Shown piece after piece: positions 11,171-48,600 of a stretch of 64,000 nucleotides of DNA. The position numbers were made by a program, and so were the translations under genes. The DNA is taken from contig NC_088789.1 of assembly GCF_949628265.1 (NCBI RefSeq), positions 22,995,883 through 23,059,882 of the forward strand, read 5' to 3'. Below the pieces are notes generated by a model that was not told the origin of the DNA, made no database searches, and worked only from the letters and a program-made list of their open reading frames with translations. The stretch's first letter is position 1; each line of letters begins with the position of its first letter. The stretch is from Cloeon dipterum. Taxonomy: Eukaryota; Arthropoda; Insecta; Ephemeroptera; Baetidae.

Positions 11171-14147
11171 TCAAAATACTCTATCTTGGAAGCCACCATC
11201 GAGGGTGCTTGAAGGTTTTGCCTGAGCCATTTGCTGCGAATGGGCAGCCCGCATGTGCCCTGGTCTGCGAGGGGGCGCGAGATATTCAAACATGCTCTGT
11301 GTGTGCTGAGCTAGCATTTTAGACAAGTCAGTTGGCATTGGATCTGTCCAGAAGAAATCGTGATTCAAAGCAGCGTCGCTGTCGGCTCGCTTCTTTGGGT
11401 CCAGCATCAACAGCCTGTCCAGTAGGTCACATGCGTAAGGGTCCTTCACGTACGGCTTCAAGCGTTCTTTGACCTTGCGCTTTTGGCCACGCGGCAACTC
11501 GACTTTGTTAAACAATTCTAGCGACTCAACGCCAGGCCAAACATCAGTTGTGATGGAGCCACAGAGCTGGCAGATGAGAGTGAGCTGCTGTATTTCAGTA
11601 TTCCCCTGTGAAATGAACACCAGAACACAATGAACCAAAGTTAGAAGAACATTTGACTGTTAACCAAATTTTTGTTACAAATACACCATATTAATAGTGA
11701 CACTTGATTTGCCTAAAAATGGAATGCCAAAATGCAGTTAGAGGAATTGCATTGAGGCTTTACTGCCCAAAACAAAATTAGGTTGCAATATTGGAATGCC
11801 CTAATTTAGATGAGTTTGCAAAATCAATTTTGTTTATCAATATGTTCTTGAGCAAAATGCGTTTGGATTTGAAAGATTTTTTAATTGCATTTTATCCCGT
11901 TTCTAAGTTTAACGGTAGCAGTGGAGACTTTCTGGCCCTCAAGTCTCAATGTTAGTAGTTGGCCTCATTCAGGATCAAGGGTAATTGAATTTTTCATACC
12001 AGAAATATTTCTATCAGGTGCCAAACAGCTAGCAGTAAGAAGTAGAAAAGTGACCTTTAGCTCGTACATTTCCAGGATTTATTCCTTCTCTCGGCCGTGA
12101 ATATCCATCATTGGTATATAAACCCCATCAGTTGAACTTAAACGTAGAAATTTCATGCATTCCACAATTCAACTATTCCTTTTACAGCCATTCCAGGCAT
12201 TTTATGAATGTTTCAACCAATTCTGGGCACTATTTTCAGGCTAAACCTTGTTACCTCTAAAGTATATCTCATATCTAATACCAGAAAAACATGAAGAATT
12301 AAGAACCAAAATAATATCCTATCATACTGCATGTAGTTTATCTTACCTGCATTATGGGGCTCCTAGTCCACATTTCAGCCATTATGCATCCAGCTCCCCA
12401 CAGGTCCACAGGAGGACCGTAATTTCGGTCTCCGAGAAGCAGTTCAGGCGGGCGATACCATAAGGTCACTACACGATTTGTGTATCTGGGAGGGAAATTG
12501 GCATGATCAAGAGTAATTATTGCTAGTGCTAGGAATATTACCTGTTTTGCTGCCCAGTTTTAGAGACACTGAACGCTCTAGCCAATCCAAAATCAGCCAA
12601 TTTGAGAATGCCATTTTTGGTTATAAGAACATTTGCAGCCTTCATATCTCTGTGAAGTATCTGGAAAATGAATCATATTTTATTGTTGTTTTGTTGTTGT
12701 TTTTGTTCAGCAGAGGAAAAACTGCGCATAGCTTAACACTCAAACTCGTTTTCCTATTTTTGAAGAAAAGGGCAACAATCAATTCAAGAATTAAAGTTTT
12801 GTGTTTGTTATGCGATGCGCAATTTCAGTGCTACCATAATGAATAATAAGTGTGGAACTCCTTTATTTTTACCTTGTTGCTGTGGATGTAATAAAGTCCA
12901 TTCAACAACTGTTGCATCACCTTTTTTATTTCGCCCAAGCTAAATTTGACGTTGACATTTGAGAGAAGACCAGCAAGGTCATGCTCGCAAAAGTCAAAAA
13001 CCAAGTAGAAAGTGGATTTGTATTTGTTGTGTTGAGATGCTGAAAGAGGAACAAATGACAACAAACACTTAAAAGAGTGTAGAGTAAATGTGTACGTCTT
13101 GTGCGGCATATCTCGATGAGATTCACAACATTCTCATGCTTGAGGAGTTGCAGGATTTTCAGCTCTCTCAAGGCCGTGATTGGGAACTGCAAGAATAACA
13201 AGATGATAGCATGAAGTATATGTACTACTTATACAAAAATAAAACGTCGTTTGCCCTACCGCCAGTAACATTGTGCAGCGCTCAACCGCATAACTCAATA
13301 TTCCTCATTGCAGGAAAATTAATATCAAGCAAAAATCGATTCATCATTAACAATTTGTTTGTGGTGCAATGCACAATTTTATCTTCACCATGCAGGGAGT
13401 ATTTTATTGCCAGTATTTTACACAAAGGCTATGTGCATGCAAATTAAGGACTCATCACCACTAAATGGCTTTCTATCTAACACTGTTTGGCTGAAATTAA
13501 TTTATTTGAAACCCAAAATTTTCCAGCCTGTAGTTTACATGTTCACTTTGCTAACTCCGATCAAAAAAACATCTGAAGGGCTGCTCTTAAAGGAACACCA
13601 AATGTCAAGGTACTCTCACACCCCAAACAAAGGGGGACTCACGCTCTCCGATCACTCACACCTGTTGTTCTGAGGGAAAGAATCATAATACCCATAATAC
13701 CCTTCCTAGAGTGAAGTGTGCGTTGGTCGAAAAGTGTGTCTTCCATTCCACATTCACAAAAATAAAAATAAAAATTGCACAAAAATAGTTCCTTACTCCT
13801 TCTTTCTCATTCTCCATCAGCACCTTTTTTAGAGCCACAAATTTCTTCATGTTTTTCCTGTCTCTTGCCTTAAAGACCTCACTGAAAGAGAAAATTAATT
13901 CAAATTTACAGTGGAATTTGAGAAACTACCCAACTAACCCAAAGGTCCCCTGTCCGATTTTGGCGACCTTTTCGTATTTCACCACGTCATCACAATAAGG
14001 GAAATTGAATGTCTCTATGTATTTTTCTCTGTCCTTCATTTGACAGAGCAATCCTGACGCTATAAGTGGGTCAGTGCTGCTGGAAGAGCCTGAGGAACTG
14101 GAGGAGCCGGACGGGCGTCCACTGCTACTAGCACCAGTAGATGCCAT
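11171..14147 (-). CDS. CDK9: Cyclin-dependent kinase 9 (P-TEFb kinase), copy B
   Basis: Seven coding exons: 14147-13939, 13881-13797, 13186-13096, 13039-12873, 12660-12542, 12485-12347 and 11605-11171 (1245 nt, 414 aa). Introns sit at the same positions and phases as in copy A. Motifs in order: Ser/Gly-rich N-terminus, IGQGTFGEV, PITALRE, hinge [35 protein letters not shown]-loop [17 protein letters not shown]-terminal FEYLAPPRR then a short Gln/Ala/Pro tail. These match the canonical family sequence better than copy A does, so this is probably the copy under the stronger original constraint. It is the P-TEFb kinase that phosphorylates the Pol II CTD. Exon 3 uses a GTACAC donor where copy A has the better GTACGT. 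The two copies lie in the same orientation about 8 kb apart. Confidence 0.96.
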
Positions 14148-30380: not shown

Positions 30381-31292
30381 TTAATTTGTTCCCACTTCTG
30401 ACTCTAAGCCACGAACTTGCTCATTGTACCAATTATACAAAGTCAACAGAATATACTCTGCAGTCGATCGAGAGGACATCGAAAAAACTCTCAGGTCTGC
30501 GACAAGGTTTTTCAAGTCATTGGAGTTCTGAGTGGATAGTAGTCTGAAGGAAATGTCTGCATGCAGTTCCTCCAAACAACGCAGCGTGTGGCAGAGAAAC
30601 TTAACATGATCAAAAGAGATGGAGCAACAATTGACTTCGAGTATTTTCAGCTTTTTCATGCTGCAAATCGACTTGATTGTCTCCATATCCACAGTCAAAT
30701 TCTTGACCTCATCCAAAGAACAATTGTCTAAAGGTGATTCATCAACAGTGAAGTACAGGCTCTCGATGTTTGGGCAATGGGTGGAAATAAGTTGAACAAC
30801 CTGTTTCATACAATAATTTTGTCATTTTCTTACAAATCAAATGGTAAAGTATATAATTTTTACCCTTGCAAACGCGTCCTTAATAATTTCTCGGGGGCAG
30901 AAGGACATCAAGCCGCCACAGTCTATTTCGGTCGTTTCGCTATCCACAGGCAGCAGCAAATCAAAGGCTTTGAAACGCTTTTGGAATTCACCAAGATCTC
31001 CTTCTTTCTTTTTACACGTGGACCTTGTCAAAGCATGCAGCACCTGTCGCTGCATCGGTTTTGCTGTTTATATAGAAATTAATATTTAGTACACACAACA
31101 TTAAGTTTGAAATCAGTTCGACTTACAAAGACAAAGAAGGTCTTTCGTATAATGTACATCCTTGCGGGTGTAGTCTCCGATGTGTCCAACAATAGTGTCT
31201 AGCACGATGTCGAAAAGCTTCTTTGGGTTGAAACATTTCTTCGTTATTGTGTCTTGCGTCATTGTCTCTGATCGTACACCTTCTGACTCCAT
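30381..31292 (-). CDS. Array gene copy 1, uncharacterised LRR-like protein
   Basis: Coding exons 31292-31127, 31063-30864 and 30800-30381 (786 nt, 261 aa); a non-coding 5' exon ends at 32121 and intron 1 is 31303-32120. I do not recognise the family. The N-terminus (NPKKLFDIVLDTIVGHIGDY) and exon 2 (MQRQVLHALTRS, then GDLGEFQKRFKAFDLLLPV, CGGLMSFCPREIIKDAF) are helical-looking; an F-box-like fold is possible but unproven. Exon 3 has a leucine-rich-repeat-like rhythm (VVQLISTHCPNIESLYF, MKKLKILEVNCCSI, LRCLEELHADISF). No signal peptide or membrane segment. Its C-terminus (YNWYNEQVRGLESEVGTN) is unlike the other copies, so it is the most divergent member. Intron 1 carries a hammerhead-like motif in sense orientation. 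Confidence 0.8.
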
Positions 31293-31587
31293 CGTGAGGG
31301 AACTGTAAGACAAAATAAATAGATTACGTTAGTGTAAGTAATTTCATAGAAATGAACATAAATTTTTCATTTAAACAAGGCCCTCAAGCAATAATTAGCT
31401 CTAATCTAAACCAAATAACGTTTTTCTGTGTGTTCATAATTTTTCTGGAAGTTTTGCAGGTATTTTAAAGCTAAGAAATACAGTAAATACACACATAGGC
31501 TATATTTTAAAATTTAAGAAAGGTTTAATAATGCCTTTATTATGTGTGGAAAATTAATCTGGATGGCTATATTTATGAGGAAAAATC

Positions 31588-31638
31588 ACATACTAGATAG
31601 CGGCTGTTTCGGCCCCACAGGCCTCATCAGCAGTTTAC
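31588..31638 (-). ncRNA. Hammerhead ribozyme motif (type I), copy 1, in the 5'-UTR intron of array gene 1
   Basis: Reading the minus strand: ACTG (stem I), core CTGATGA (31630-31624), stem II GGCC-TGTGG-GGCC, core GAA, stem III ACAG-CCG-CTAT, C17 at 31596, then TAGT (stem I). All invariant core residues are present. Stem III has one C-A mismatch compared with the copy at 37183-37233, so activity is likely reduced. The motif is in the sense strand of the host intron (31303-32120). Confidence 0.75.
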
Positions 31639-32121
31639 TCAAAAATGGATATTTTGTTTTGGAAGCAAAGTATTCTAATTTTTCATTTTTTCAGTGTTTA
31701 CAAGATGATCTATTGCGCTGAAAAGCTGCATGAATACTTGAAAGAGTATGAGGAGCTGTCAAAAGACAGAAACAAAACATTTCGTAATTTAAAGTGATCA
31801 CAAAAGCAGATATTATTACATGATATAATACTATTTGCTTAAATTTGATCGCAAATAGTTTTTAACTTCAATTAAATTAATAGAAAATCAAATTGCGGAG
31901 AAATTGTAAAAGAGATCCACACGACGTAGGCAAAATATTCACTTGCGAGACCAAAACATGCATCTATTATTTATGTTTGTCAAAGAGCGACTCACACTAA
32001 ATTATATCCATATCGTTTCCGTTAAATTTCTTTTAAATAAGTCAACCTCTTTTCCGTGCGCTAACACTATGTTATAGCAAATTCAGCTTAAGAAAAATAT
32101 TATATAGGACGTAATATTACC

Positions 32122-32330
32122 TGGAGTTCTGCATTAAATCTTCTAAACTTGTAATATTAACTTTTTATCGTCCACACGTGGTTTGGATAGCAGCTGGGTC
32201 GTGCGCGTCTTTCTCTCTATTAGTTGTGTGATGATATGACAGGGGAAGGCGGTCAGAGGCGATTTTCAGAGATAAAAAACGTAAAGCGCAGGCGCAAAGG
32301 AGGGTGAACACCCTTCTATGAACAGATAGA
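32122..32330 (-). promoter_or_regulatory. Promoter region of array gene 1
   Basis: E-box CACGTG at 32175-32180, NRF1-like GCGCAGGCGC at 32286-32295 and the dyad GGGTGAACACCC at about 32302-32313 precede the non-coding first exon, whose donor follows AACTCCAG at 32121. The same trio precedes all six copies. Confidence 0.6.
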
Positions 32331-33014
32331 ATTTCCTAGACGTTTCTCGAATCCCAAAATCGGAGGAATATTTAGAAATTTTCTGATGCAACACCCTTCT
32401 ATACATTTATTTATGCTTATTTTTATTGGCCGTATGATTAATTTGGTTCGAAATTCCAAATGAACTTATTGGAACGTTTCTACAAATGACTTAATAGTAA
32501 ATTACAAATTCAAATCATGTATGTTTAAGGAGTATATATATAGATTAATAAAATTCACTGATCTATTTGTTTTCATCCTTTGTGCAATTTTATTGAGCAA
32601 GTTAAACTGCATTTAATTGAAGACACCAGGTTGCTTTAAATAGAAACATAATTTTGGCTATAGCCATTTTAGAATGTTTTGTCATCAAATGTTATCCCTC
32701 ACTGTAATATATATTTTGGAAAATTTATCGTCATTTTGACATCGTTTTATTTTAAGACGAAAGTGCCTAAAAATATTTTTAGAGTTCCACAATTTTTATC
32801 TCATATATTATTTATGAAAATACCAATATCAGAAATATATATAGAGGTTGTTAAAATATTTTAAACAGGCAACAGGCAATATGGAATCGTCGGACAAAGT
32901 TTTTACTCATTTTATCTTTTAAATAGAAAAGATATCCTCTGCAATTGGTAAAAATGCACTCTTTTTAAAAACGAGGGGGAAGAAGAGCGAACTTTTCACA
33001 CCAGATCAAAGCTA

Positions 33015-33919
33015 TCAATCTGTTTCCATGTCTGATTCTGAGCTAAGAGTTGACTCTTCTAAGGACCTTAAAAAATTCAATCGACGAATCAACTTCAAAT
33101 ACGATCGAAGAGACGGTGTAAAAACTTTAAGGTGTGTGTTAATAATGATTGTATTTTCTATTAGGTCTTGTGCAGACACATTTCTGTAGCTAATGTCGAC
33201 TTCTAGCTCCTCCAAAAAACAGAGAAACTTGATATGTCCAAAAAATATGGAGCAACAGTTGACTTTGAGTATTTTCAGCTTTTCCATGCTGCATATTGAC
33301 TCGATTGTCTCCATATCCAGAATGTTTTTCTCCTCATCTTCAGCACACTCGTCTAAAGGTGACTCATCGACAGCGTAGGACAGGCTCTCGATGTTTGGGC
33401 AATGAGTGGAAACAAGTTGAACAACCTGTTTCATAAAATAATTTAGTCATTTTCTTATAAATAAAAAATGGTAAATAAGTATATAAAAATTACCCTTGCA
33501 AGCGCGTCCTTAATAATTTCTCGGGGGCAGAAGGACATCAAGCCACCACAGTCTATTTCAGTGGTTTCGCTATCCACAGGCAGCAGCAACTCGAAGGCTT
33601 TGAAGCGCTTTTGGAATTCACCAAGATCTCCTTCTTTACTGTTGCACTTGGACCTAATCAAAGCATGCAGCACCTGTCGCTGCATCGGTTTCGCTGTTTA
33701 TAAAGAAATTAATATTTAGTGCACACAACATTGAGTTTGAAATCAGTTTGACTTACAAAGACAAAGAAGATCTTTCGTAAAATGTGCATCCTTGCGGGTG
33801 TGGTCACCGATGTGTCCAACAATGGTGTCTAGCACGATGCCGAAAAGCTTCTTTGGGTTGAAACATTTCTTCGTTGTGTCTTGTGTCAGTTTCTCTGATC
33901 GTACACCTTCTGACTCCAT
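33015..33919 (-). CDS. Array gene copy 2, uncharacterised LRR-like protein
   Basis: Coding exons 33919-33757, 33693-33494 and 33425-33015 (774 nt, 257 aa); the non-coding 5' exon ends near 34447. Protein architecture as in copy 1, but exon 3 is shorter in the middle (KFLCFLEELEVDISY, without the CHTL residues) and ends LRSLEESTLSSESDMETD, an acidic tail. It is nearly identical to copy 4 (38626-39530), from which it differs by a handful of residues, so the pair is recent. Its 5'-UTR intron carries a 433-bp foldback MITE instead of the hammerhead motif. Confidence 0.8.
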
Positions 33920-33975
33920 CGTGAGGGAACTGTAAGACAAAATAAATAGTTTACGCGTTAGTTAGTGTAGTAATT

Positions 33976-34408
33976 GACCAGTTGCATGAACCCTTAGTTA
34001 TTGAAGCCGCCAACAGATGGCGCAACCACAGACTTTCTTAAAATTTTTGTTTTAAGGCACTTCCGCTGCGATTTCAGACTCAATCTAGCTACCGTGCATT
34101 CTTAATTAAATATCCTCTCATTTTACGTTGTGAAAACCAAAATCGGTTCAACCAATCGCCGTAGAATCGTGAAAAACTATTTTTTGCTTAAAAAAATCTT
34201 TTCCAACGTTTCTACGGCGAATGGCTGAACCGATTTTGGTTATCAGTACGTCAAAAAAAGCAAAAATAATTGAGAAATACATAATAGCTAGATTGAGTCT
34301 GAATCGCAGCGGAAATGTCTTAAAACCGCTTAAAACAAAATTTCTTAAGAAAGTCTGGTTGCACCATCTGTTGGCGGCTTTGAACACTAAGGGTTTATGC
34401 AACTGGTC
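33976..34408. mobile_element. 433-bp foldback MITE in the 5'-UTR intron of array gene 2
   Basis: The ends are inverted repeats (GACCAGTTGCATGAACCCTT at the left; AAGGGTTTATGCAACTGGTC at the right) and the arms pair almost to the centre (GCACTTCCGCTGCGATTTCA with its complement). AATT flanks both ends (33972-33975 and 34409-34412). A paralogous copy is at 39589-40021. Confidence 0.8.
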
Positions 34409-34447
34409 AATTCAGATTTGAAAAATGTACAAGGCGTGTAATTACCT

Positions 34448-34620
34448 GGAGTTCTCTGCATAATTTTTTTTTTAATCTTGTAAATACTTTACACAATTAT
34501 CCACGTGGTGCTTGGAGAACAGCGGCAATTGCGAACAACCTCTACCCAGACCTATGAGCGCATGCGCTGCTTCTGAGGGTAAAAAACACCCTCTGCTGCC
34601 TGGAAGATGGCAGCAGTGAT
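34448..34620 (-). promoter_or_regulatory. Promoter region of array gene 2
   Basis: E-box CACGTG at 34502-34507, a perfect NRF1-type palindrome GCGCATGCGC at 34558-34567 and the dyad GAGGGT...ACCCTC at about 34577-34594. Confidence 0.6.
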
Positions 34621-34906
34621 ATCGAGTCCTAAAAAACAGTTGACAGTAGAAGATTGCAATATAGCTGTTTCAGTATTTGTGCAGCCTGATGAATTTTACC
34701 CGTTTCCCCCGCCATTTTTATTAATAGCCGCGCAAGATTGAAAAATAAATTATTGATATTTGGGTTTTTCCCAAAATACTTCAATTTTTTTACATGTGTA
34801 GGCCAAGTCTTTTATGAAATTGACGTACGATGAAATATCTAACTAAAAAATTGCTTTTAAAAAACAACGAAATCTAAATTAGAGCTTAAATATATATAGC
34901 GACATT

Positions 34907-35165
34907 TCGTTCGTGCCGCGGAAAAAGTCCGATCTCGAACTTGAACTTGCCAACGGTACAATTGTCCGATCTCACTGTTGTTCATCATGGGTCTCAAATT
35001 GAAGCAGATGTCACGCTGATCACGTGACTGTGTTCAGAATCGAGTTTTGCCACAATAATGAGATCGGAAAATTTTACCGTTGGAAAGAAAAGTAGTCCGT
35101 CGGACTTTTGCTGGCAAGTTCGAGTGGCAAGTTCGAGATCGGACTTTTTTCCGCGGCACGAACGA
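34907..35165. mobile_element. 259-bp element with terminal inverted repeats, unit-I specific
   Basis: TCGTTCGTGCCGCGGAAAAA begins the left end and its near-exact reverse complement ends at 35165; the inverted repeats extend through AGTCCGATCTCGAACTTG. The paralogous site at about 40714-40735 (TAGCGACATTATTGTAAGTT) lacks it, so insertion postdates, or excision followed, the duplication. Confidence 0.8.
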
Positions 35166-35968
35166 TTTTAAGTTGAGTTTGGCTTTGATGATCAGTCTCA
35201 CGCTCTAATAAGACTTGCGATCGCGAAATTGGCCGTAAATTACGTTTTACGGAGTTGAAATTTATGCTGACTATATAGCCATAGAAAATTAAAACGTCAA
35301 TTCTTCCTTGTGACTATTGCAAGGGAAAATAGGGGCAACTAGTGGCCGAGGCGAGGGAGTGATGATGCTCGGTAGAGATCAGGAGTTCCGCCAGCTTGCG
35401 AAAGCCACCTTGATGGCTCGAGGGATGGATTTGACATCAATTGGGGTGTCACATGCCAGTTCAATGATAGGAAAATTACATTTTAAGGGCGTGAAAGACG
35501 TCAAAAGCCAACTTTAAATTAAACAGTGCTCGTTCAACGTTAATAACTGAAAAATAAATAAAAGCCAATTTTTTACATGTAATTGTACTTCTTGGTAGGA
35601 AGCCCTGGCCGCAGAGCGCTTTGCCTTTGGTTCTGCAGGCGCGTATTGGGGGCAGATCAGACCGATGCGTCACGACAAATAATATCGTTTATTTACAGAG
35701 GAAAATTACTAAAACAATTTTTTTAGAGTTTTCACAAATTTATATCACACACCATTTAAAAATACACATTATCAGAAATATATTCTATGTACCATAAAAA
35801 ATTTGAACAGAGTAGGCTATGCCATAAAGTCAAACTATTAGTTCACTCTTTTTCGCCATAAAATAGAAAATGCGCTCCTTTTAATGATCGATGAGAAAAG
35901 CGCACTTTGTACACTATATAGATCATGCATGGCAAACAAAGAGTTATCAAACTACCCATAACTGTCGA

Positions 35969-36883
35969 TTATTCAGTGTCTTTTTCCACTTCATATTCAG
36001 ATTCTGAAAAAAGCTCGGAAATTATACTATTGTAATTCAACCGACACAACTCAAGAGCCGACCGATCTGATAGCGAAAAAACTTTCAGGTCGTTGTTGAG
36101 AATTGTATAGTCCATGCAGTCCTCGTAGGAAAAATCTCCAAAGAAAATGTCCACTTTTAGTTCCTCCAAACAACACAGCGTGTGGCAGAGAAACTTAGCT
36201 TGTTCAAGAGTGATGGAGCAACAATTCATTTTCAGTGTTTTTAGTTTTTTCATGCTGCATACTGACTCGATGGTCTCTATATCCAGAATGTTCTTCACCT
36301 CATCCAAAGAAGACTCGTCTAAAGGTGACTCATCAAACGCGGACAGGCTCTCGATATTCGGGCAATGGGTGGAAACAAGTTGAACTACCTGTTTCATAAA
36401 ATATAATTTAGTCATTTTCTTATACATCAAATGGTAACCATATAAAATTTACCCTTGCAAACGCGTCCTCAATAATGTCTTTGGGGCAGAAGGACATCAA
36501 GCCGCCACAGTCTATTTCGATCGTTTCGCTATCCAGCACAGGCAGCAGCAAATCAAAGGCTTTGAAACGCTTTTGGAATTCACCAAGATCCCCTTCTTTA
36601 TTCTTGCACTTGGACATTGTCAAAGCATGCAGCACCTGTCGCTGCATCGGTTTCGCTGTTTATATATAGAAATTAATATTTAGTACACACAATATTAAGT
36701 TTGAAATCAGTTTGACTTACAAAGACAAATAAGGTCTTTCGTATAATGTACATCGTTGCGGGTGTAGTCTCCGATGTGTCCAACAATAGTGTCTAGCACG
36801 ATGTCGAAAAGCTTCTTTGGGTTGAAACATTTCTTCGTTGTGTCTTGCGTGAGTGTCTCTGATCGTACACCTTCTGACTCCAT
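35969..36883 (-). CDS. Array gene copy 3, uncharacterised LRR-like protein
   Basis: Coding exons 36883-36721, 36655-36453 and 36388-35969 (786 nt, 261 aa); the non-coding 5' exon ends at 37726 and intron 1 is 36894-37725. Exon 2 has one extra residue (LLPVLDSETIEI). Exon 3 reads VVQLVSTHCPNIESLSAFDE, MKKLKTLKMNCCSITLEQ, CCLEELKVDIFFGDFS and ends with an acidic SESEYEVEKDTE tail. It is closest to copies 5 and 6. Function unknown. Intron 1 contains the best hammerhead motif in the window, in sense. Confidence 0.8.
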
Positions 36884-37182
36884 CGTGAGGGAACTGTAAG
36901 ACAAAATAAATAGATTACGTTAGTGTAATATTTAGAAAGTAATTTCATAGAAATGAACATACATTTTTCATTTAAACAAGGCCCTCAAGCAATAATTAGC
37001 TCTAATCTAAACCAAATAAGGTTTTCTGTGTGTTCATAATTTTTCTGGAACTTTTGCAGGTATTTTAAAGCAAAGAAATACACACAGAGGCTATATATAT
37101 TTTAAAATTTAAGAAAGGTTTAATAATGCCTTTATTATGTGTGGAAAATTAATCTGGAAGGCTATATTTATGAGGAAAAATC

Positions 37183-37233
37183 AAATACTAGACAGCGGCT
37201 GTTTCGGCCCCACAGGCCTCATCAGCAGTTTAC
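37183..37233 (-). ncRNA. Hammerhead ribozyme motif (type I), copy 2, complete core; in the 5'-UTR intron of array gene 3
   Basis: Minus strand, 5' to 3': stem I strand ACTG (37229-37226); core CTGATGA (37225-37219); stem II GGCC (37218-37215), loop TGTGG, GGCC (37209-37206); core GAA (37205-37203); stem III ACAG (37202-37199), loop CCG, CTGT (37195-37192); C17 at 37191; stem I strand TAGT (37190-37187). Every core position fits the hammerhead consensus, all four stem III pairs are Watson-Crick, and cleavage is predicted between 37191 and 37190. Stems II and III are closed and stem I is open, which is type I. Such minimal type I ribozymes are known from Penelope-like elements and introns. Confidence 0.85.
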
Positions 37234-37726
37234 TCAAAAATGGATATTTTGTTTTGGAAGCAAAGTATTCTAATTTTTCATTTTTTCAGTGTTTACAAGA
37301 TGATCTATTGCGCTGAAAAGCTGCATGAATACTTGAAAGAGTATGAGGAGCTGTCAAAAGACAGAAACAAAACATTTCGTAATTTAAAGTGATCACTAAA
37401 GCAGATATTATTACATCATATAATACTATTTGCTTAAATTTGATCGCAAATTTAACTTCAATTAAATTAATAGAAAATCAAATTGCGGAGAAATTGTAAA
37501 AAAGATCCACACGACGTAGGCAAAATATTCACTTGCGAGACCAAAACATGCATCTATTATTTATGTTTGTCAAAGAGCGACTCACACTAAATTAAACATT
37601 TTGATCCGAATCGTTTCCGTTAAATTTCTTTTAAATAAGCCAACCTCTTTTCCGTGCGCTAACACTATGTTATAGCAAATTCAGAATTCAGCTTAAGAAA
37701 AATATTATATAGGACGTAATATTACC

Positions 37727-37930
37727 TGAAGTTCTGCATTAAATCTTCTAAACTTGTAATATTAACTTTGTATCGTCCACACGTGGTTTGGATAGCAGCT
37801 GGGTCGTGCGCGTCGTTCTCTCTATTAGTTGTGTGATGATATGAGAGAGGAAGGCGGTCAGAGGCGATTTTCAGAGATAAAAAACGTAAAGCGCAGGCGC
37901 AAAGGAGGGTGAACACCCTTCTATGAACAG
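37727..37930 (-). promoter_or_regulatory. Promoter region of array gene 3
   Basis: E-box CACGTG at 37780-37785, GCGCAGGCGC at 37891-37900 and GGGTGAACACCC at about 37907-37918, in the same order and spacing as for gene 1. Confidence 0.6.
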
Positions 37931-38625
37931 ATAGAATTTCCTAGACGCTTCTCGAATCCCAAAATCGGAGGAATATTTAGAAATTTTCTGATGCAACACC
38001 CTTCTATACATTTATTTATGCTTATTTTTATTTGCCGTATGATTAATTTGGTTCGAAATTCCAAATGAACTTATTGGAACGTTTCTACAAATGACTGAAT
38101 AGTAAATTACAAATTCAAATCATGTATGTTTAAGGAGTATATAGATTAATAAAATTCACTGATCTATTTGTTTTCAGTTTTCATCCTTTGTGCAATTTTA
38201 TTGAGCAAGTTAAATTGCATTTAATTGAAGACACCAGGTTGCTTTATAAATATAAACATATACTTATGGCTATAGCCATTTTAGAATGTTTTGTCATCAA
38301 ATGTTATCCCTCACTGTAATATATATTTTGGAAAATTTATCGTCATTTTGACATCGTTTTATTTAAAGACGAAAGTGCCTAAAAAATATTTTTAGAGTTC
38401 CACAATTTTTATCTCATATATTATCTATGAAAATACCAATATCAGAAATATATATAGAGGTTGTTAAAATATTTTAAACAGGCAACAGGCAATATGGAAT
38501 CGTCGGACAAAGTTTTTACTCATTTTATCTTTGAAATAGAAAAGATATATCCTCTGCAATTGGTAAAAATGCACTATTTTTAAAAACGAGGAAAAGAGCG
38601 AACTTTTCACACCAGATCAAAGCTA

Positions 38626-39530
38626 TCAATCTGTTTCCATGTCTGATTCTGAGCTAAGAGTTGACTCTTCTAAGGACCTTAGAAAATTCAATCGACGAAT
38701 CAACTTCAAATACGATCGAAGAGACGGTGTAAAAACTTTCAGGTGTGTGTTAATAATGATTGTATTTTCTATTAGGTCTTGTGCAGACACATTTCTGTAG
38801 GTAATGTCGACTTCTAGCTCCTCCAAAAAACAGAGAAACTTGATATGTCCAAAAAATATGGAGCAACAGTTGACTTTGAGTATTTTCAGCTTTTCCATGC
38901 TGCATATTGACTCGATTGTCTCCATATCCAGAATGTTTTTCTCCTCATCTTCAGCACACTCGTCTAAAGGTGACTCATCGACAGCGTAGGACAGGCTCTC
39001 GATGTTTGGGCAATGAGTGGAAACAAGTTGAACAACCTGTTTCATAAAATAATTTAGTCATTTTCTTATAAATAAAAAATGGTAAATAAGTATATAAAAA
39101 TTACCCTTGCAAACGTGTCCTTAATAATTTCTCGGGGGCAGAAGGACATCAAGCCACCACAGTCTATTTCAGTGGTTTCGCTATCCACAGGCAGCAGCAA
39201 CTCGAAGGCTTTGAAGCGCTTTTGGAATTCACCAAGATCTCCTTCTTTACTGTTGCACTTGGACCTTGTCAAAGCATGCAGCACCTGTCGCTGCATCGCT
39301 TTCGCTGTTTATATAGAAATTAATATTTAGTACACACAACATTAAGTTTGAAATCAGTTCGACTTACAAAGACAAAGAAGGTTTTTTGTATAATGTACAT
39401 CCTTGCGGGTGTAGTCTCCGATGTGTCCAACAATGGTGTCTAGCACGATGTCGAAAAGCTTCTTTGGGTTGAAAAATGTCTTCTTTGTGTCTTGTTTCAG
39501 TGTCTCTGATCGCATGCCTTCTGACTCCAT
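38626..39530 (-). CDS. Array gene copy 4, uncharacterised LRR-like protein
   Basis: Coding exons 39530-39368, 39304-39105 and 39036-38626 (774 nt, 257 aa). It pairs with copy 2. Exon 1 has drifted most (GMRSETLKQDTKKTFFNPKK; YTKNLLCL), exon 2 begins KAMQRQ rather than KPMQRQ, and exon 3 is almost unchanged. All splice sites and the reading frame are intact. The 5'-UTR intron carries the paralogous foldback MITE (39589-40021). Confidence 0.78.
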
Positions 39531-39588
39531 TGTGAGGGAGAGCTGTAAGACAAACTAAATAGTTTACGCGTTAGTTAGTGTAGTAATT

Positions 39589-40021
39589 GACCAGTTGCAT
39601 AAAGCTTAGTTATTGAAGCCGCACACAGATGGCGCAACCACAGACTTTCTTAAAAATTTTGTTTTCAGGCACTTCCGCTGCAATTTCAGACTCAATCTAG
39701 CTACCGTGCATTCTTAATTAAATATCCTCTCTTTTTACGTTCTGAAAACCAAAATCGGTTCAACCAATCGCCGTAGAAACGTGAAAAACTATTTTTTGCA
39801 ATAACAAAATCTTTTCCAACGTTTCTACGGCGAATGGCTGAACCAATTTTGGTAATCAGTACGTCAAAAAAAGCAAAAATAATTGAGAAATACATAATAG
39901 CTAGATTGAGTCTGAATCGCAGCGGAAATGTCTTAAAACCGCTTAAAACAAAATTTCTTAAGAAAGTCTGGTTGCACCATCTGTTGGCGGCTTTGAACAC
40001 TAAGATTTTATGCAACTGGTC
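39589..40021. mobile_element. Foldback MITE in the 5'-UTR intron of array gene 4
   Basis: Paralogue of 33976-34408 with the same ends and AATT flanks. It was duplicated with the unit rather than inserted independently. Its left arm (about 39655-39765) is the likely source of the inverted segment at 40539-40620. Confidence 0.8.
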
Positions 40022-40064
40022 AATTCAGATTTGAAAAATGTACAAGTCGTACATATAATTACCT

Positions 40065-40240
40065 GGAGTTCTCTGCATTAATTTTTTTTTAATCTTGTAA
40101 ATACTTTACGCAATTATCCACGTGGTGCTTGGAGAACAGCGGCTATGTGTGTCGCTATATAGTGCGAACAACCTCGACCCATACCTATCTAGAGCGCAGG
40201 CGCTGCTTCTGAGGGTAAAAAACACCCTCTGCTGCCTGGA
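40065..40240 (-). promoter_or_regulatory. Promoter region of array gene 4
   Basis: CACGTG at 40129-40134, GCGCAGGCGC at 40194-40203, and GAGGGT...ACCCTC at about 40212-40230. Confidence 0.6.
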
Positions 40241-40538
40241 AGATGGCAGCAGTGATACAGCGTCCTAAAAAACAGTTGACAGTAAAAGATTGCAATATAG
40301 CTGTTTCAGTATATGTGCAGCCTGATGAATTTTACCCGTTTGCCCCGCCATTTTTATTAATAGCCGCGCAGGATTGAAAAATAAATTAACGATTTTTGGG
40401 TTTTTCCCAAAATACTTCAATTTTTTTAAATGTGTTTAGGCCAAGTCTTTTATGAAATTGACGCGTACGATGAAATATATAACTAAAATAGTGCATTTAA
40501 AAAACAACGAAATCTAAATTAGAGCTTATATTTATATA

Positions 40539-40617
40539 TTCAACTGATTTTGGTTTTCAGAACGTAAAAAGAGAGGATATTTGATTAAGAATGCACGGTA
40601 GCTATAGATTGATTCTG

Positions 40618-40620
<3 letters not shown>
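40539..40620. repeat. Inverted templated insertion from the foldback MITE arm
   Basis: TTCAACTGATTTTGGTTTTC onwards is the reverse complement of about 39660-39755 with only a few differences, and is absent from the paralogous site at about 34885. It abuts a long TA microsatellite. Confidence 0.7.
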
Positions 40621-40707
<87 letters not shown>

Positions 40708-40713
40708 TATATA
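40621..40713. repeat. TA dinucleotide microsatellite, about 93 bp
   Basis: An uninterrupted (TA)n run to about 40700, then one register shift. The unit-I paralogue at about 34890 has only a short AAATATATATAG stretch. Confidence 0.95.
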
Positions 40714-41549
40714 GCGACATTATTGTAAGTTGAGTTTGGCTCTTATTGAACAGTCTCAATCTAATAAGACTCGCGATCGCGAAATTGGCCGTAAAAATTA
40801 CGTTTTACAGAGTTGAAATTTATGCTGACTAAAGCCATAGAAAATTAAAACGCCAATACTTCATGTGACTATGGCAAGGGAAAATAGGGGCAACTAGTGG
40901 CCGAGGCGAGGGAGTGATGATGCTCGGTAGAGATCAGGAGCTCCGCCAGCTTGCGAAAGCCACCTTGAAGGCTCGAGGGATGGATTTGACATCAATTGGG
41001 GTGTCACATGCCAGTTCAATGATAGGAAAATTACATTTTAAGGGCGTGAAAGACGTCAAAAGCCAACTTTAAATTAAACAGTGCTCGTTCAACGTTAATA
41101 ACTGAAAAATAAATAAAAGCCAATTTTTTACATGTAAATTGTACTTCTTGGTAGGAAGCCCTGCCCGCCGAGCGCTTTGCCTTGGTTCTGCAGGCGCGTA
41201 TTGGGGGCAGATCAGACCGATGCGTCACGACAAATAATATCGTTTATTTACAGAGGAAAATTACTAAAACAATTTTTTTAGAGTTTTCACATATTTATAT
41301 CACACACCATTTAAAAAAACACATAATCAGAAATATATTCTATGTACCATAAAAAATTTGAACAGAGGCTGTATGCCATAAAGTCAAACTATTAGTTCAC
41401 ACTCTTTTTCGCCATAAAATAGAAAAATGCGCTCCTTTTAATGATCGATGAGAAAAGCACACTTTGTACACTATATAGATCATGGCAAACAAAGAGTTAT
41501 CAAACTATCCATAACTGTCGATTATTCAGTGTCTGTTTCCACTTCATAT

Positions 41550-42432
41550 TCAGATTCTGAAAAAAGCTCGGAAATTATACTGTTGTAATTTCCGACACAA
41601 CTCAAGAGCCGACCGATCTGATAGCGAAAAAACTTTCAGGTTGTTGTTGAGAATTGTATAGTCCATGCTGTCCTCGTAGGAAAAATCTCCAAAGAAAATG
41701 TCCACTTTTAGTTCCTCCAAACAACACAGCGTGTGGCAGAGAAACTTAGCTTGTTCAAGAGTGATGGAGCAACAATTCATTTTCAGTGTTTTTAGTTTTT
41801 TCATGCTGCATATTGACTCGATGGTCTCCATATCCAGAATGTTCTTCACCTCATCCAAAGAACACTCGTCTAAAGGTGACTCATCAAACGCGGACAGGCT
41901 CTCGATATTCGGGCAATGGGTGGAAACAAGTTGAATAACCTTTTTCATAAAATATTATTTAGTCATTTTATTATAAATCAAATGGTAACCATATAAAATT
42001 TACCCTTGCAAACGCGTCCTCAATAATGTCTTGGGGGCAGAAGGACATCAAACCGCCACAGTCTATTTCGGTCGTTTCGCTATCCAGCACAGGCAGCAGC
42101 AAATCAAATGCTTTGAAACGCTTTTGGAATTCACCAAGATCCCCTTCTTTACTCTTGCACTTGGACATTGTCAAAGCATGCAGCACCTGTCGCTGCATCG
42201 GTTTTGCTGTTTATATAGAAATTAATATTTAGTACACACAATATTAAGTTTGAAATCAGTTTGACTTACAAAGACAAAGAAGATCATTCGTAAAATCTTC
42301 ATCCTTGCGGGTGTAGTCTCCGATGTGTCCAACAATGGTGTCTAGCACGATGTCGAAAAGCTTCTTTGGGTTGAAACATTTCTTCGTTGTGTCTTGTGTC
42401 AGTTTCTCTGATCGTACACCTTCTGACTCCAT
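41550..42432 (-). CDS. Array gene copy 5, C-terminus altered by a frameshift
   Basis: Coding exons 42432-42270, 42206-42004 and 41939-41550 (756 nt, 251 aa); the non-coding 5' exon ends at about 42862. It matches copies 3 and 6 until the last residues, where a 2-bp deletion near 41587-41592 changes the shared SIISELFSESEYEVE tail to CRKLQQYNFRAFFRI and a stop. The intron 2 acceptor is also unusual (AAAAAG instead of AAACAG). The protein may still be made without its acidic tail, or the gene may be decaying. Confidence 0.7.
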
Positions 42433-42862
42433 CGTGAGGGAACTGTAAGACAAAATAAATAGTTTCAGGACCTTCAACAGCAGTATTAGTTTATTGATTT
42501 TGAAAATTGATCATGATTTGGAGGTATTCTGATTCTAACTATTTATTTCATTGTCTAAAAGACGATTTTATAGCGTAGGAAAGCTGCATGAATACTTAGA
42601 ATAGGTGGAGGAGCCGTCAAAATCAAAGAACAAAGAAAAACACGAACTTTATTTCGTACTTAAAAGTGATTTTTTATATTATTTGATTTTTCGAAACGGA
42701 AATGGATCAGCATAATTATGACACGTGCAAGTTTCTAGATCTTTTATAATAATAAATTCGTAAAAATAATAAGTCAACCTCTTTTTGAGTGCGTGAACAC
42801 CATTTCATAGAATATATTATAGCAAATTCAATTTAAGGAAACTATACAGGGCGTGAAATTAC

Positions 42863-43060
42863 CTGGAGTTCTGCAATTCTTTACTAATCTTGCACGACTT
42901 TATATCCCACGTGGTTTGGAGAGAAGCTGCGTCACGCGTCTTTCTCGCTACTATGCCTGTGATGCTATGACGCTATGACCAAGGAGATTTTTTCAGAGAT
43001 AAGAAAAGTAAAGCGCAGGCGCAGCGGAGGGTAAACACCCTCCTTGCACGCGGTTAAGGT
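42863..43060 (-). promoter_or_regulatory. Promoter region of array gene 5
   Basis: CACGTG at 42908-42913, GCGCAGGCGC at 43013-43022, and the dyad GAGGGTAAACACCCTC just beyond. Confidence 0.6.
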
Positions 43061-45069
43061 TGCTAGCATCGAACAGATTGAATTTTCTAGATGTTTCTTA
43101 ATTTCAAAATCGGGATTTATCATCGGGTGTCGTGTTCAATTTTTCAAAATTTAGTGAATTTTCGAATTTCTATCAATTAAAACACGAAAAACCACTTCTA
43201 ACCTAGAATTTGACCTCAACTTGATGCAATGAAAGGTTGAAATGAGCCGAACAATTGATTTCTAGGTATTATAGATAAGAAAAAACTAATTAAATTAACA
43301 ATCATAATATAGTTTTATTTGTTCCACCTGTATATTAAAGTTACAGGACGTTGGCAACCGAATTATTCATAATAAGATATATATAAATTAACTGTCCATG
43401 ATGTGGTATTTGAACATTGACATCATTCCAGAAACTGCCAGAAATATCTTTTAATTTATCGGTCAGTGTCCACTTTGACACAAAACTGTCAAATTGAAGC
43501 TAAAACGAATCAATTAAACTATTCAGTAGAAAAAATATTGGAAATCGACTTACATGATAGTATTTTATAACGATTCAGAATTCACAGAATTTCAGGTTTT
43601 TATGATATAATTTTTTCTCTGGTGGCAAAAGTCAAAGAGACAGAAAGTGCAAGGCAACAATTATATTTAGGGAAATGTACAAACTTCGAACACCAGCTTT
43701 CACTCAAAAACACTGAAAGACCAGATAAACAGCTTTCTAGTCTTTTAATATCATGCAAATAATTAATTAATCAAATAGTCTGTTTGTTGAAGATCACAGG
43801 TTAATGCAACAATAGGATTCCATTAAGTTTTTGTATATTTATAAGCACATTTATTCGGATATAATTATTTATTTGGATAATTTTCCGCTATAACAGTGTG
43901 TTTTTGAGAAAACCGATTTTATTATTCAATCATGAACGCTGCTATGGTTACTGGAATTTATTTTTGATTTTGAGAAAGCTATTTTACTGGGTGTCACCTC
44001 GATTTCAACCGCTTACACGAGACTAGTAGAGTGGATGAATTCAAAAGTTTTGTTACAATTATATCAATCCAATGTTGTTTACAATTCAACAAAATTGAGC
44101 AAGATTGGATTAAAATATATAGAGGAGTGATTTCACCTTAGTATTTGAGTTGTAACAACCACAAAATTATTAGCTTTCGAAATAATATAATTTTTATAAT
44201 GCTTTTCATACACAGACAACAAATTGAATCACGGTGAAAAATATTGCTTTGCTCAAACACAATGGGTGTTAGGACGTGAATGCTTCACAACTGCAGATTT
44301 TAATGATTCTGTTTTCTAAAATTGTTCTTGAACAGCGAAAGTTTATTCAGAAATTAAATAAGCTATGCGAACAATTTAGAAAATTAAATTAATAGTTGAA
44401 TTATTTATTAAATTTTGTTCAAATATATTTTTATAGGGCATATAGTGCGTAATTTTCTGAAATAGATGATCCAGAATTTGTTTGAACGAATCAGAAACTG
44501 TCCAAATGAGTTCTCTATGACTTCGACAAATTTATTTTACACGTTTCTACGTCGATTGGCGCTGGGCCAATTTTTTGTTTTAGCAAATCAAAAGAGTAAA
44601 TTTTAAGTGAAGAATGCACAGTGGCAGCGATGAGTGTGCTAAAATCTAAAATAACCGCTGGCGCCATCTATTGGCTGCTTCAGACACTAAAGGCTTTTGC
44701 AACTGGTTAAATACGTTATAATTGATTATGTAGTAAAACTGGCGATAATCGTACAATTAACAAGAAAATTCATCTGTGATGAAACTAAATAATTCATTTG
44801 TTTCTGTAACCTTCCATCAATTTTATAAAAATCCATTGGATTTAAGCTGTATTCTGAAAGACGCTGTTCAAGAGCAATTTCGTACCAAATAAAATCAAGT
44901 TTTCCTGCATTCCATCCTGCTAAATAAGCACGAACCTCTCATAAACCTATACAAAAAATCAAATCGAAAACAAAATATCGGCATAGAAAAACTAAAAACG
45001 TGTCAAAAATAAAAAAATGCAATAAGAAAGATTAGCTCTGCGCCTCTGTACAGCCAAAGCAGAGCACTG
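43061..45069. other. Non-coding spacer, duplicated at about 49210-51186
   Basis: No reading frame or RNA gene was recognised. Near 44535-44710 lies a half-copy related to the GACCAGTTGCA foldback MITE (GCAACTGGTTAAAT end), duplicated at about 50696-50828. Confidence 0.6.
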
Positions 45070-45549
45070 CTATTTCTTGAGGGGCGTCTGCTGGGCAACC
45101 TTGGGGGAGGTGGGGGTGGGGGCGGGGGCCGACTGGTTGGCCATCTGGGCAGCCGCCTGCGTCAGGTTCATCTTTCGCAGCGACACCTCGAGCGCCATTC
45201 GCTCGCCGTGCAGCTCGTCAATCTTGGCGCCGAGCCTCTGCTTCTCTTCGGTGAAGAGGCGCTCGGCGGCCAGCAGTCTTCTGCGCAGCTCCTCGTTCTC
45301 CCTCGTGAGCTCAGCAGCCTTTCGCCGGGCCACCTCAACCTCAAACTGGCTGCTCGTCGGGCTGACCGATATGCCCGACCCCGCTGCACTGCCCCCGGCC
45401 GGCTCGATGATGAACGCGCCTGACGCTGTCCGCGGCACCTTCAGTTTTGATATGCACACGTTGATTGGCATGTTGCTGGCCGAACCGGCCAGCTGGCTCA
45501 CTGCAGACCTGTCTTCGCTCAGGTGCATCTGCACGTTTTCCAGCACCAC
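45070..45549 (-). pseudogene. Duplicated terminal coding exon of BLTP3 (open, with splice acceptor)
   Basis: This 480-nt exon (159 aa plus stop) differs from the BLTP3 last exon at 51187-51666 by only about five residues: P for S and I for F near the start, S for A twice, and a final K for R. It keeps the acceptor TTTGTGCAG, the phase 0 start (VVLENVQMHLSEDRSAV) and the coiled-coil segment. No upstream BLTP3 exons were copied. It is therefore an orphan exon, unless BLTP3 transcripts skip 51187-51666 and read through array gene 6 to use it as an alternative end. The lack of stops fits recent origin, constraint, or both. Confidence 0.8.
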
Positions 45550-45714
45550 CTGCACAAAGTCGAATAAAGGAAAATTAATACAGCAGTTTAGCTAATTTGA
45601 TATCAATAGATCTTAGAGGTCCAAGCCAGCCGCGCTGCGCCGCCGCAGTGAAAGATGGTAAAAAATAAACAAAATGCAGGAGAAATATTTTTTCGACCTT
45701 TTGGGCAGTTAAGT

Positions 45715-45966
45715 AGAAACGTTGGAAAAGATTTTTTTATTTCAAAAAATAGTTTTTCACGATTCTACGGCGATTGGCTGAACCGATTTTGGTTTTCAGC
45801 ACGTCAAAAATTAGCAAATTAATTGAAGAATGCACAGTAGCTAGATTGAATCTGAAATCGCAGCGGAAGTGCCTTAAAATCGAAAGTCTACGGTGGCGCC
45901 ATGTTGGCGCCGTACGAAGCCGCCTGCTGACGGCTTCGAACACTTAGGGTTTATGCAACTGGTGAA
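45715..45966. repeat. Half copy of the GACCAGTTGCA foldback MITE
   Basis: One arm only: CGATTGGCTGAACCGATTTT through GGGTTTATGCAACTGG, matching the right half of 33976-34408. Confidence 0.65.
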
Positions 45967-46252
45967 TTAAATAATAATCTTACAAAAATGGACACACTTT
46001 TATTTTAACAAGGCCCTTTAGCAATAATTAACTCTTTTCTTAACTAAATATCGTTTTTCTTTGTGGTCATAAATTTTTTGGAATTGTTTCAGATTTTTTA
46101 AGACAAAGAAATACTCACACAAGGCTTTATTTAAAAATTTAAGATAAACTGAACGGCTCTCTATGCTTTGTGGTAAATTAATCTGGATGGTTATAGCTAA
46201 TAGTGAAATTTTTTTTTATATTTATTATGAGAAAAAATCAAATATCACGTGT

Positions 46253-46304
46253 TCGTACTATATAGCTGCTATTTCGGCCCCGCAGGCCTCAATCAGCAGT
46301 TCAC
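46253..46304 (-). ncRNA. Hammerhead ribozyme relic, copy 3, with covarying stem III
   Basis: Minus strand: ACTG stem I; core CTGATTGA with one inserted T (46296-46289); stem II GGCC-TGCGG-GGCC; core GAA; stem III ATAG-CAG-CTAT; A17 at 46261; TAGT stem I. Stem III keeps four pairs because the second pair has changed from C-G to U-A, a compensatory change relative to 37183-37233. The extra T in the core probably inactivates it. The surrounding 46000-46560 is an old paralogue of array intron 1. Confidence 0.65.
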
Positions 46305-46740
46305 TCAAAAATTGGTATTATATTTTGGAGGCAAAATTTTCTAATTTTTAAATTTTCACCATCTTCAAGACGATTGACAGTGCAGAAAAGCTGCATGAAT
46401 TTTGAAAATGTTATATGAGTTGGAAGAGCTGTCAAAAGTTGAAGAAAGACTCGATCGAAATACAGCATTTCATTGTGAAAAGTCTCATAAATTAAAGTAA
46501 ACTTATTAACATCATAATATGAACAAACATAATATTATTATGTTTATTCAAATTTGATCGAATACATAAGGTTAAATCTGACATTGTGCCAAGCCGCTAA
46601 AGGAAAAACGAACACTGATGTGTGATTTAATTATTCTGTATATTATTCTGTTGTACACCTTTTGGCGTCTAATAAATATTTCATTCATATAAGGTTGAAT
46701 GTTTTTTTCAATTTCAATGAAAATATTAAAAATGGAAAGG

Positions 46741-46900
46741 GAGGCAAGTTGCCCTTGAGTGGGCTGGGTCCCTGTGCGGCCTGGTGCGCCCGCATGTTAT
46801 CCGTCCGCGGTGTTATTGGGACCCGGGTGTCAGCATTATTCGTGCTAGTGCAGTGCGCGCCCTTCCCGGTACTCGGACAGGGATAAAAAGAAAAAAAAAC
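46741..46900 (+). mobile_element. SINE-like retroposon, 3' fragment
   Basis: GTGGGCTGGGTCCCTGTGCG onwards matches the reverse complement of 3125-3290 and ends in an A-rich tail at about 46888-46900. It is 5'-truncated, as is typical of target-primed retroposition. Confidence 0.75.
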
Positions 46901-46919
46901 GAATAGTAAAAATATGTAT

Positions 46920-47062
46920 CGTCCGGCTCGCGGTAAAATCGCTAAACTTTCAACTAACACCCAAATTTTCTTTGTCGAATTGATTGTTGCCCTGTTCTTG
47001 CAACCAAAAGAAAATCCACGTTTGGTTTGTTGAAAATTGCGAAATTTTACTGGGCCGGGACG
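46920..47062. mobile_element. AATT-type MITE, inverted copy
   Basis: Ends CGTCCGGCTCGCGGTAAAAT and TTTACTGGGCCGGGACG; the core is the reverse complement of that in 10890-11039 (CAATTGATTGTTGCCC-like). Lies just before unit III, right copy. Confidence 0.75.
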
Positions 47063-47683
47063 ATACTATATGTTTCTTTAATATAAAAAGCGTCAAAAAT
47101 ATAAATATTGACTGAAAATCGTTTTTTAATATTTCTGAACTTGCAAATCAGACAGAATAAGAATTTCTCTTTCTCATATATAATTATGATAACATTTTAA
47201 GGGCGTGAAAGACGTCAAAAGCCAACTTTAAATTAAACAGTGCTCGTTCAACGTTAATAACTGAAAAATAAATAAAAGCCAATTTTTTACATGTAATTGT
47301 ACTTCTTGGTAGGAAGCCCTGGCCGCAGAGCGCTTTGCCTTTGGTTCTGCAGGCGCGTATTGGGGCAGATCAGACCGATGCGTCACGACAAATAATATCG
47401 TTTATTTACAGAGGAAAATTACTAAAACAATTTTTTTAGAGTTTTCACAAATTTATATCACACACCATTTAAAAATACACATTATCAGAAATATATTCTA
47501 TGTACCATAAAAATTTGAACAGAGTAGGCTATGCCATAAAGTCAAACTATTAGTTCACACTCTTTTTCGCCATAAAATAGAAAAATGCACTCCTTTTAAT
47601 GATCGATGAGAAAAGCGCACTTTGTACACTATATAGATCATGCATGGCAAACAAAGAGTTATCAAACTATCCATAACTGTCGA

Positions 47684-48600
47684 TTATTCAGTGTCTGTTT
47701 CCACTTCATATTCAGATTCTGAAAAAAGCTCGGAAATTATACTATTGTAATTCAACCGACACAACTCAAGAGCCGACCGATCTGATAGCGAAAAAACTTT
47801 CAGGTCGTTGTTGAGAATTGTATAGTCCATGCAGTCCTCGAAGGAAAAATCTCCAAAGAAAATGTCCACTTTTAGTTCCTCCAAACAACACAGCGTGTGG
47901 CAGAGAAACTTAGCTTGTTCAAGAGTGATGGAGCAACAATTCATTTTCAGTGTTTTTAGTTTTTTCATGCTGCATACTGACTCGATGGTCTCTATATCCA
48001 GAATGTTCTTCACCTCATCCAAAGAACACTCGTCTAAAGGTGACTCATCAAACGCGGACAGGCTCTCGATATTCGGGCAATGGGTGGAAACAAGTTGAAC
48101 TACCTGTTTCATAAAATATAATTTAGTCATTTTCTTATACATCATATGGTAAACCATATAAAATTTACCCTTGCAAACGCGTCCACAATAATGTCTTTGG
48201 GGCAGAAGGACATCAAGCCGCCACAGTCTATTTCGGTCGTTTCGCTATCCAGCACAGGCAGCAGCAAATCAAATGCTTTGAAACGCTTTTGGAATTCACC
48301 AAGATCCCCTTCTTTACTCTTGCACTTGGAAATTGTCAAAGCATGCAGCACCTGTCGCTGCATCGGTTTTGCTGTTTATATAGAAATTAATATTTAGTAC
48401 ACACAATATTAAGTTTGAAATCAGTTTGACTTACAAAGACAAAGAAGATCTTTCGTAAAATGTGCATCCTTGCGAGTGTAGTCTCCGATGTGTCCAACAA
48501 TGGTGTCTAGCACGATGTCGAAAAGCTTCTTTGGGTTGAAACATTTCTTCGTTATTGTGTCTTGCGTCAGTGTCTCTGATCGTACACCTTCTGACTCCAT
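47684..48600 (-). CDS. Array gene copy 6, uncharacterised LRR-like protein
   Basis: Coding exons 48600-48435, 48371-48169 and 48103-47684 (789 nt, 262 aa); the non-coding 5' exon ends at about 49031. It resembles copy 3 closely (SAFDESPLDECSLDEVKN, CCLEELKVDIFFGDFSFEDC, acidic SESEYEVETDTE tail) and has the longer ETLTQDTITKKC N-terminus seen in copy 1. It is the intact counterpart of copy 5 and shows that copy 5's frameshift is derived. It lies between the two BLTP3 terminal exons, on the same strand. Confidence 0.8.

Follow-up and report, generated by a model that had tools for sequence, protein, structure and literature searches.

A probable hammerhead ribozyme module from a dispersed palindromic repeat in the first intron of a Cloeon dipterum array gene

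Type I hammerhead ribozymes (HHRs) of animals have been described in tandem non-LTR retrozymes and in Penelope-like elements, and most of the classical ones are reported in retrozymes, which are small, AT-rich, non-coding repeats, according to the portion of the source available to us (PMC7229834). Metazoan non-LTR retrozymes consist of 150-450 bp repeats in direct tandem order (Cervera and de la Pena 2020, PMC7229834). The HHR motifs of Penelope-like elements usually lack helix III, and those in amniote introns (RECK, CTCL) show long-term conservation and are attributed to a retroelement origin, as stated in the accessible sections of a further account (PMC6155905).

The window analysed here, a stretch of 64,000 nucleotides of Cloeon dipterum DNA, carries a tandem gene array at 30381-48157, with a two-gene duplication unit of ~5.6 kb that is 94-99% identical in the stretches listed. 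The array genes are presumably short LRR/F-box-like genes. A preliminary description had placed a type I hammerhead core with its stems in an intron of array gene 3 (36894-37725), on the sense strand, and the minus-strand letters, the splice signals and a structural scan all agree with it. The HHR core lies at 37229-37186 on the minus strand, which is the strand of the gene, and reads ACTG-CTGATGA-GGCC-TGTGG-GGCC-GAA-ACAG-CCG-CTGT-C-TAGT; stems II, III, and I are each of 4 bp, stem II gaining a fifth if a U-G pair is counted and stem I including a G-U pair that adjoins the cleavage site. The features of a type I HHR are present, namely the CUGANGA core, GAA, A15.1-U16.1, H17, and three stems with stem I open. 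C17 falls at 37191 and position 1.1 at 37190, and the proposed cleavage between 37191 and 37190 holds as a predicted site; C is the usual base at the hammerhead cleavage position. When the whole window was scanned (stem II at least 4, stems III and I at least 3), the gene 3 site was the sole match, while order-3 Markov copies of the window yielded 0.004 matches per window at a minimum of 4/4/4 (1 in 250) and, with loops of 8 or fewer, none in 250 copies. The predicted intron, the first of gene 3, lies in the 5'-UTR, and its borders (G37725-G36894; a slash marks the junction) read CAG/GTAATA at the 5' end and TTGTCTTACAG/TTCC at the 3' end; gene 5 shares its 5' end, and genes 1, 2, 5, and 6 share its 3' end.

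The motif is one of many. A 141-nt query taken round it gave 44 matches in the species' own genome (190 Mb, 10 contigs): the gene 3 and gene 1 copies themselves, 38 others with E values of 3e-7 or less, and four weak ones. The 38 strong matches are restricted to the HHR-holding part, within query positions 43-128, and ~44 nt of the HHR recur at dozens of sites on contigs C1-C5. The exact family pattern CTGATGANGCCTGNNGGGCNGAAACAGC occurs at 18 sites, including two window copies, and its backwards control at none. Flank queries returned 286, 96, and 212 first-look candidates, rough counts with 40 scored per query, and candidates in such number indicate that the family is large. The mobile-element origin that had been proposed for the intronic HHR is thus upheld, the motif being a module of a dispersed repeat. 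The exact pattern was absent from collections of viral contigs and genome contigs, and consensus H had no match in phages; since these collections hold viruses and prokaryotes, both absences carry little weight.

Aligned copies resolve into modules V-U-H-D-E, of which H is the HHR, and the modules run E'D'H'U'V' in the left half and VUHDE in the right half, internal deletions being frequent (79 sequences, comprising 78 of 90 loci and the 46 kb copy of the window; the 12 excluded loci were redundant or represented the gene 1 copy). Modules occur in both directions in 33 of the 79, and in 31 of these 33 every minus module stands to the left of every plus module, the exceptions being loci L020 and L064. 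Nine sequences have two H modules, as judged in 3 kb loci; the two are inverted in eight of them, and the same-direction pair, in L064, adjoins a second, nested-looking element. Family conservation ceases at the outer ends at ~CTTTGTCTTAAAAT, and the element has terminal inverted repeats with common ends. Spans from D to D of 568 (L069), 598 (L025), and 657 bp (L004), together with ~55 bp of E per side, suggest a fuller element length of ~680-770 bp. No target-site duplication was found in 16 loci read by eye, where both outer ends are rarely preserved. Judged from these alignments, the repeat is palindromic, and each of its arms carries an outward-pointing predicted HHR.

The gene 3 copy retains only part of this architecture. 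On the minus strand it contains module H (37186-37229, with CTGATGA from 37225, then GAA and C17), module D, the inner part of the arm end (37125-37164, 83% over 41 columns), and module E, the outer element end at which family conservation stops (37067-37116); on the plus strand, a 20-nt scrap of module U from the opposite arm (37246-37265, 90%, E 0.009) is inverted and deletion-joined to H. As its modules are read here, the copy is a deletion derivative, in which the left arm (E, D, H) is fused to a right-arm U scrap. The preliminary description, sound as to this motif, had missed two more copies that the window contains, at 31643-31583 and 46309-46248. The former is the gene 1 copy of the insertion (31591-31634, minus strand), which has a stem III mismatch (CTAT). 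The latter, an older copy at 46 kb (46246-46300, minus strand), has an inserted T in the core (CTGATTGA) and a two-sided change in stem III, from C-G to U-A, and its modules D and E lie at 46098-46208 on the same strand. The element is absent from genes 5 and 6 save for a likely H scrap, which was shuffle-tested in gene 5, where the intron end (42443-42545, minus strand) has a possible scrap (ACTGCTGTTGAAGGTCCTG) with the remainder missing and 4 of 2000 shuffles reach its score. No match to the element was obtained in the gene 2 and gene 4 introns, whose similarity to gene 3 here is confined to the surroundings of the second exon. In these two genes the second exon is preceded (34073-34303 and 39685-39916) by a different MITE-like inverted repeat, with arms of 111-113 nt that are 74-75% complementary and parts that recur at 45713-45969.

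The segment 36932-37360 aligns with 45967-46438 at 69.6%, extending past the element ends, and gene 1, gene 3, and the 46.3 kb relic have the insertion plus its flanks in common. These common flanks place the insertion before the array expansion; as the sequences compare, it predates the split of gene 1, gene 3, and the 46.3 kb relic, and the HHR was not retained throughout. Setting aside 14 gap columns, H of gene 3 matches that of the 46 kb copy at 39/44 positions, vs 284/370 in the surroundings (p=0.083), which leaves room for a weak constraint on H. The stretch 45967-46438 is a diverged array-intron relic with the element, downstream of gene 6 and outside the six frame-bearing array copies, and this suggests an old, lost array member.

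Across the family, copies ascertained by their flanks permit H to be compared with the rest of the element. Those found by the U flank (n=30) have kept 259/300 of the H core, 613/766 of the H stems, and 989/1246 of D, while those found by the D flank (22 of 30 used) have kept 107/133 of the core, 299/360 of the H stems, and 393/499 of U. The core is slightly better kept than D in the U-ascertained set (nominal p=0.006) and does not differ from U in the D-ascertained set (p=0.72); the H stems do not differ from the flank module in either set (p=0.73 and p=0.14). Letter-perfect cores are found in 10/28 and 4/13 of the flank-ascertained copies spanning H. H shows little or no conservation beyond the rest of the element.

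The identity of module H as a ribozyme was assessed from models, folding, and chance expectation. At gathering score, Rfam gave no match in the window; for a short stretch round the gene 3 motif, RAGATH-1-hammerhead scored 21.5 bits (cut-off 56.3, E 0.11) and Hammerhead_3 15.1 bits (cut-off 48.5, E 0.96), and no hammerhead family appeared at E<=1 in 20 of the 90 family loci (two of them the same place). With a covariance model trained on 30 copies of the family, the gene 3 motif scored 69.1 bits, a value that is partly circular because the model includes the gene 1 and gene 3 copies. Locus L011 has, at 2734-2927, sub-threshold matches to three Rfam miRNA families that overlie a single stretch in both orientations, which may be a long hairpin repeat. 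When 71 nt round the motif were folded unconstrained, the result scored no better than shuffles (z 0.16) and was not the hammerhead fold. A nearest-neighbour energy model, in which core and tertiary contacts are not represented, favours a competing hairpin over the HHR fold both in the consensus (-16.2 vs -12.6 kcal/mol) and in gene 3 (-13.4 vs -6.3 kcal/mol, a gap of ~7 kcal/mol); the constrained consensus fold has an internal loop after stem I. Covariation in the HHR stems did not exceed shuffles in 30 copies or in 61, and RNA-level selection is accordingly unsupported; such a lack of covariation is to be expected of dead copies from one source.

Within its 320 nt, the consensus arm has a single type I HHR, with stems of 6/5/4 bp, a full core, G10.1-C11.1, A15.1-U16.1, H17, and three stems. 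In 467 Mb of simulated order-1 Markov sequence with the composition of the consensus arm, the looser 4/4/4 form arose 3 times (~4e-6 per arm, two strands), and no HHR with stem I of at least 6 arose. The odds are milder than computed, because many windows or repeats may have been screened before this choice. Module H is very probably an HHR by descent.

No coding part of the element was seen in the fetched loci. Open frames of at least 110 aa numbered 172, in 77 of 90 loci, and among the 60 longest, read by eye over their first 110 residues, many were host-gene-like or of low complexity and one was RT-like (L087, reverse strand, 124-1188; non-LTR-like by eye); no reverse transcriptase regularly adjoining copies was seen among these 60, and no enzyme for the element was found. 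A search for piggyBac transposase, prompted by TTAA-like ends, gave 0 matches and is uninformative, as the control also matched nowhere. Penelope was tried as a candidate source, and the GIY-YIG family gave 1 match in 190 Mb at E<=0.001, a search that would pass over elements lacking this domain. The Penelope-like source that had been suggested was thus not borne out, the element being a non-coding palindrome with a stem III of 4 bp.

MITEs and fold-back elements are short, non-coding, and built with long inverted arms, and they give rise to derivatives by internal deletion; the present element resembles them in each of these respects. We know of no ribozyme motif in MITE or fold-back arms. 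The element is like the non-LTR retrozymes in being a short, AT-rich, non-coding, multicopy animal repeat with a type I HHR; unlike those direct tandem repeats, it has two inverted HHRs in a palindrome with common ends (PMC7229834, as far as the available text describes them). It shares with Penelope-like elements and Terminons the placement of an HHR within repeated mobile-element ends, and differs from Penelope-like elements, as characterised in the accessible sections of PMC6155905, in having no coding part seen, no enzyme found, and a stem III of 4 bp. The amniote intronic HHRs are likewise type I and intronic, with a retroelement source thought for them; whereas those are long conserved, paralogues in this array have lost or broken theirs (PMC6155905, same sections). 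What is new is the two-arm, inverted HHR layout. Going by the partly available sources, the described animal settings are tandem retrozymes, Penelope-like elements, and a few introns, so that an inverted two-arm element would be new; no description of an HHR in an inverted-repeat element was recognised in the open-licence literature, which does not imply its absence from print. Tentatively, the family may represent a palindromic class of mobile element with an HHR in each inverted arm and RNA predicted to self-cut from either strand, one that would combine a ribozyme step with an inverted-repeat (DNA-transposon-like or fold-back) element. If so, a ribozyme may aid a DNA-transposon-like element, e.g., by cutting host read-through transcripts.

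We consider it probable that the gene 3 motif is a decayed HHR module of a non-coding, palindromic, dispersed element, with most likely no role in the gene. The source element would have carried type I HHRs pointing outward in both arms, a symmetry by which a transcript of the full element, whatever its direction, would include a single sense HHR close to where it leaves the element. The original job of the HHR would have been RNA processing in the element life cycle, a read-through transcript cutting itself inside the element. One copy would have inserted in the first intron of the array ancestor and then lost most of one arm; it would have multiplied with the array and thereafter decayed in a mostly neutral manner, the gene 3 core staying intact through chance or weak constraint. 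The gene 3 copy may be capable of slow cutting and would most likely be spliced away with the intron; at present it most likely does nothing, or cuts slowly in an intron that is removed by splicing, and a function of the HHR in the gene is doubtful. The case illustrates how an HHR may enter a gene intron and then be lost.

A present role, in which an exapted ribozyme causes gene 3 pre-mRNA to cut itself in the 5'-UTR intron and thereby tunes expression or splicing, a role proposed for the conserved HHRs in amniote introns, appears highly improbable. Such self-cleavage had been raised as a possibility, and what stands in its favour is an intact, sense-strand, intronic core with C at position 17, to which may be added the slightly higher identity of H than of its surroundings when gene 3 is compared with the 46 kb relic (p=0.083). 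A function in the gene family is weakened by the gene 1 mismatch, the core insertion at 46.3 kb, the retention of at most a scrap in genes 5 and 6, and the lack of a match in genes 2 and 4, and a self-cleavage role in gene 3 itself by an HHR fold ~7 kcal/mol worse than the competing hairpin; stem I there has just 4 bp, one of them G-U. The opposite proposal, that CTG/CAG-rich nested hairpins in a DNA inverted-repeat arm mimic a hammerhead that never had any RNA step, would accord with the missing covariation, the success of the competing hairpin even in the consensus, the Rfam results, and the resemblance to DNA fold-back elements or MITEs. We nevertheless judge it quite unlikely, given the full consensus HHR set against chance matches so rare, and given that the competing hairpin has no need of complementarity in stem I or in the 3' strand of stem III. 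Unlikely, too, is derivation from a known HHR retroelement (a non-LTR retrozyme or a Penelope-like element) that was inverted later, a reading that departs from the decayed palindromic module only in the origin of the element. Size and low GC resemble those of retrozymes, where most classical animal type I HHRs are reported (PMC7229834, in the available portion); against this, the direct tandem layout is absent from the 3 kb loci, with eight of nine two-H sequences inverted, the GIY-YIG family gave a single match, and the 60 longest frames, read by eye, included a single RT-like one.

Two other features of the window lie apart from the element. A long (TA)n run adjoins a 66-nt inverted-repeat arm at 40539-40708. 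A second duplication in the window comprises two frames 8.8 kb apart (2410-2877 and 11171-11638), identical at 134 of 155 residues (86%), which we take to resemble the C-terminal part of a CDK9-like kinase.
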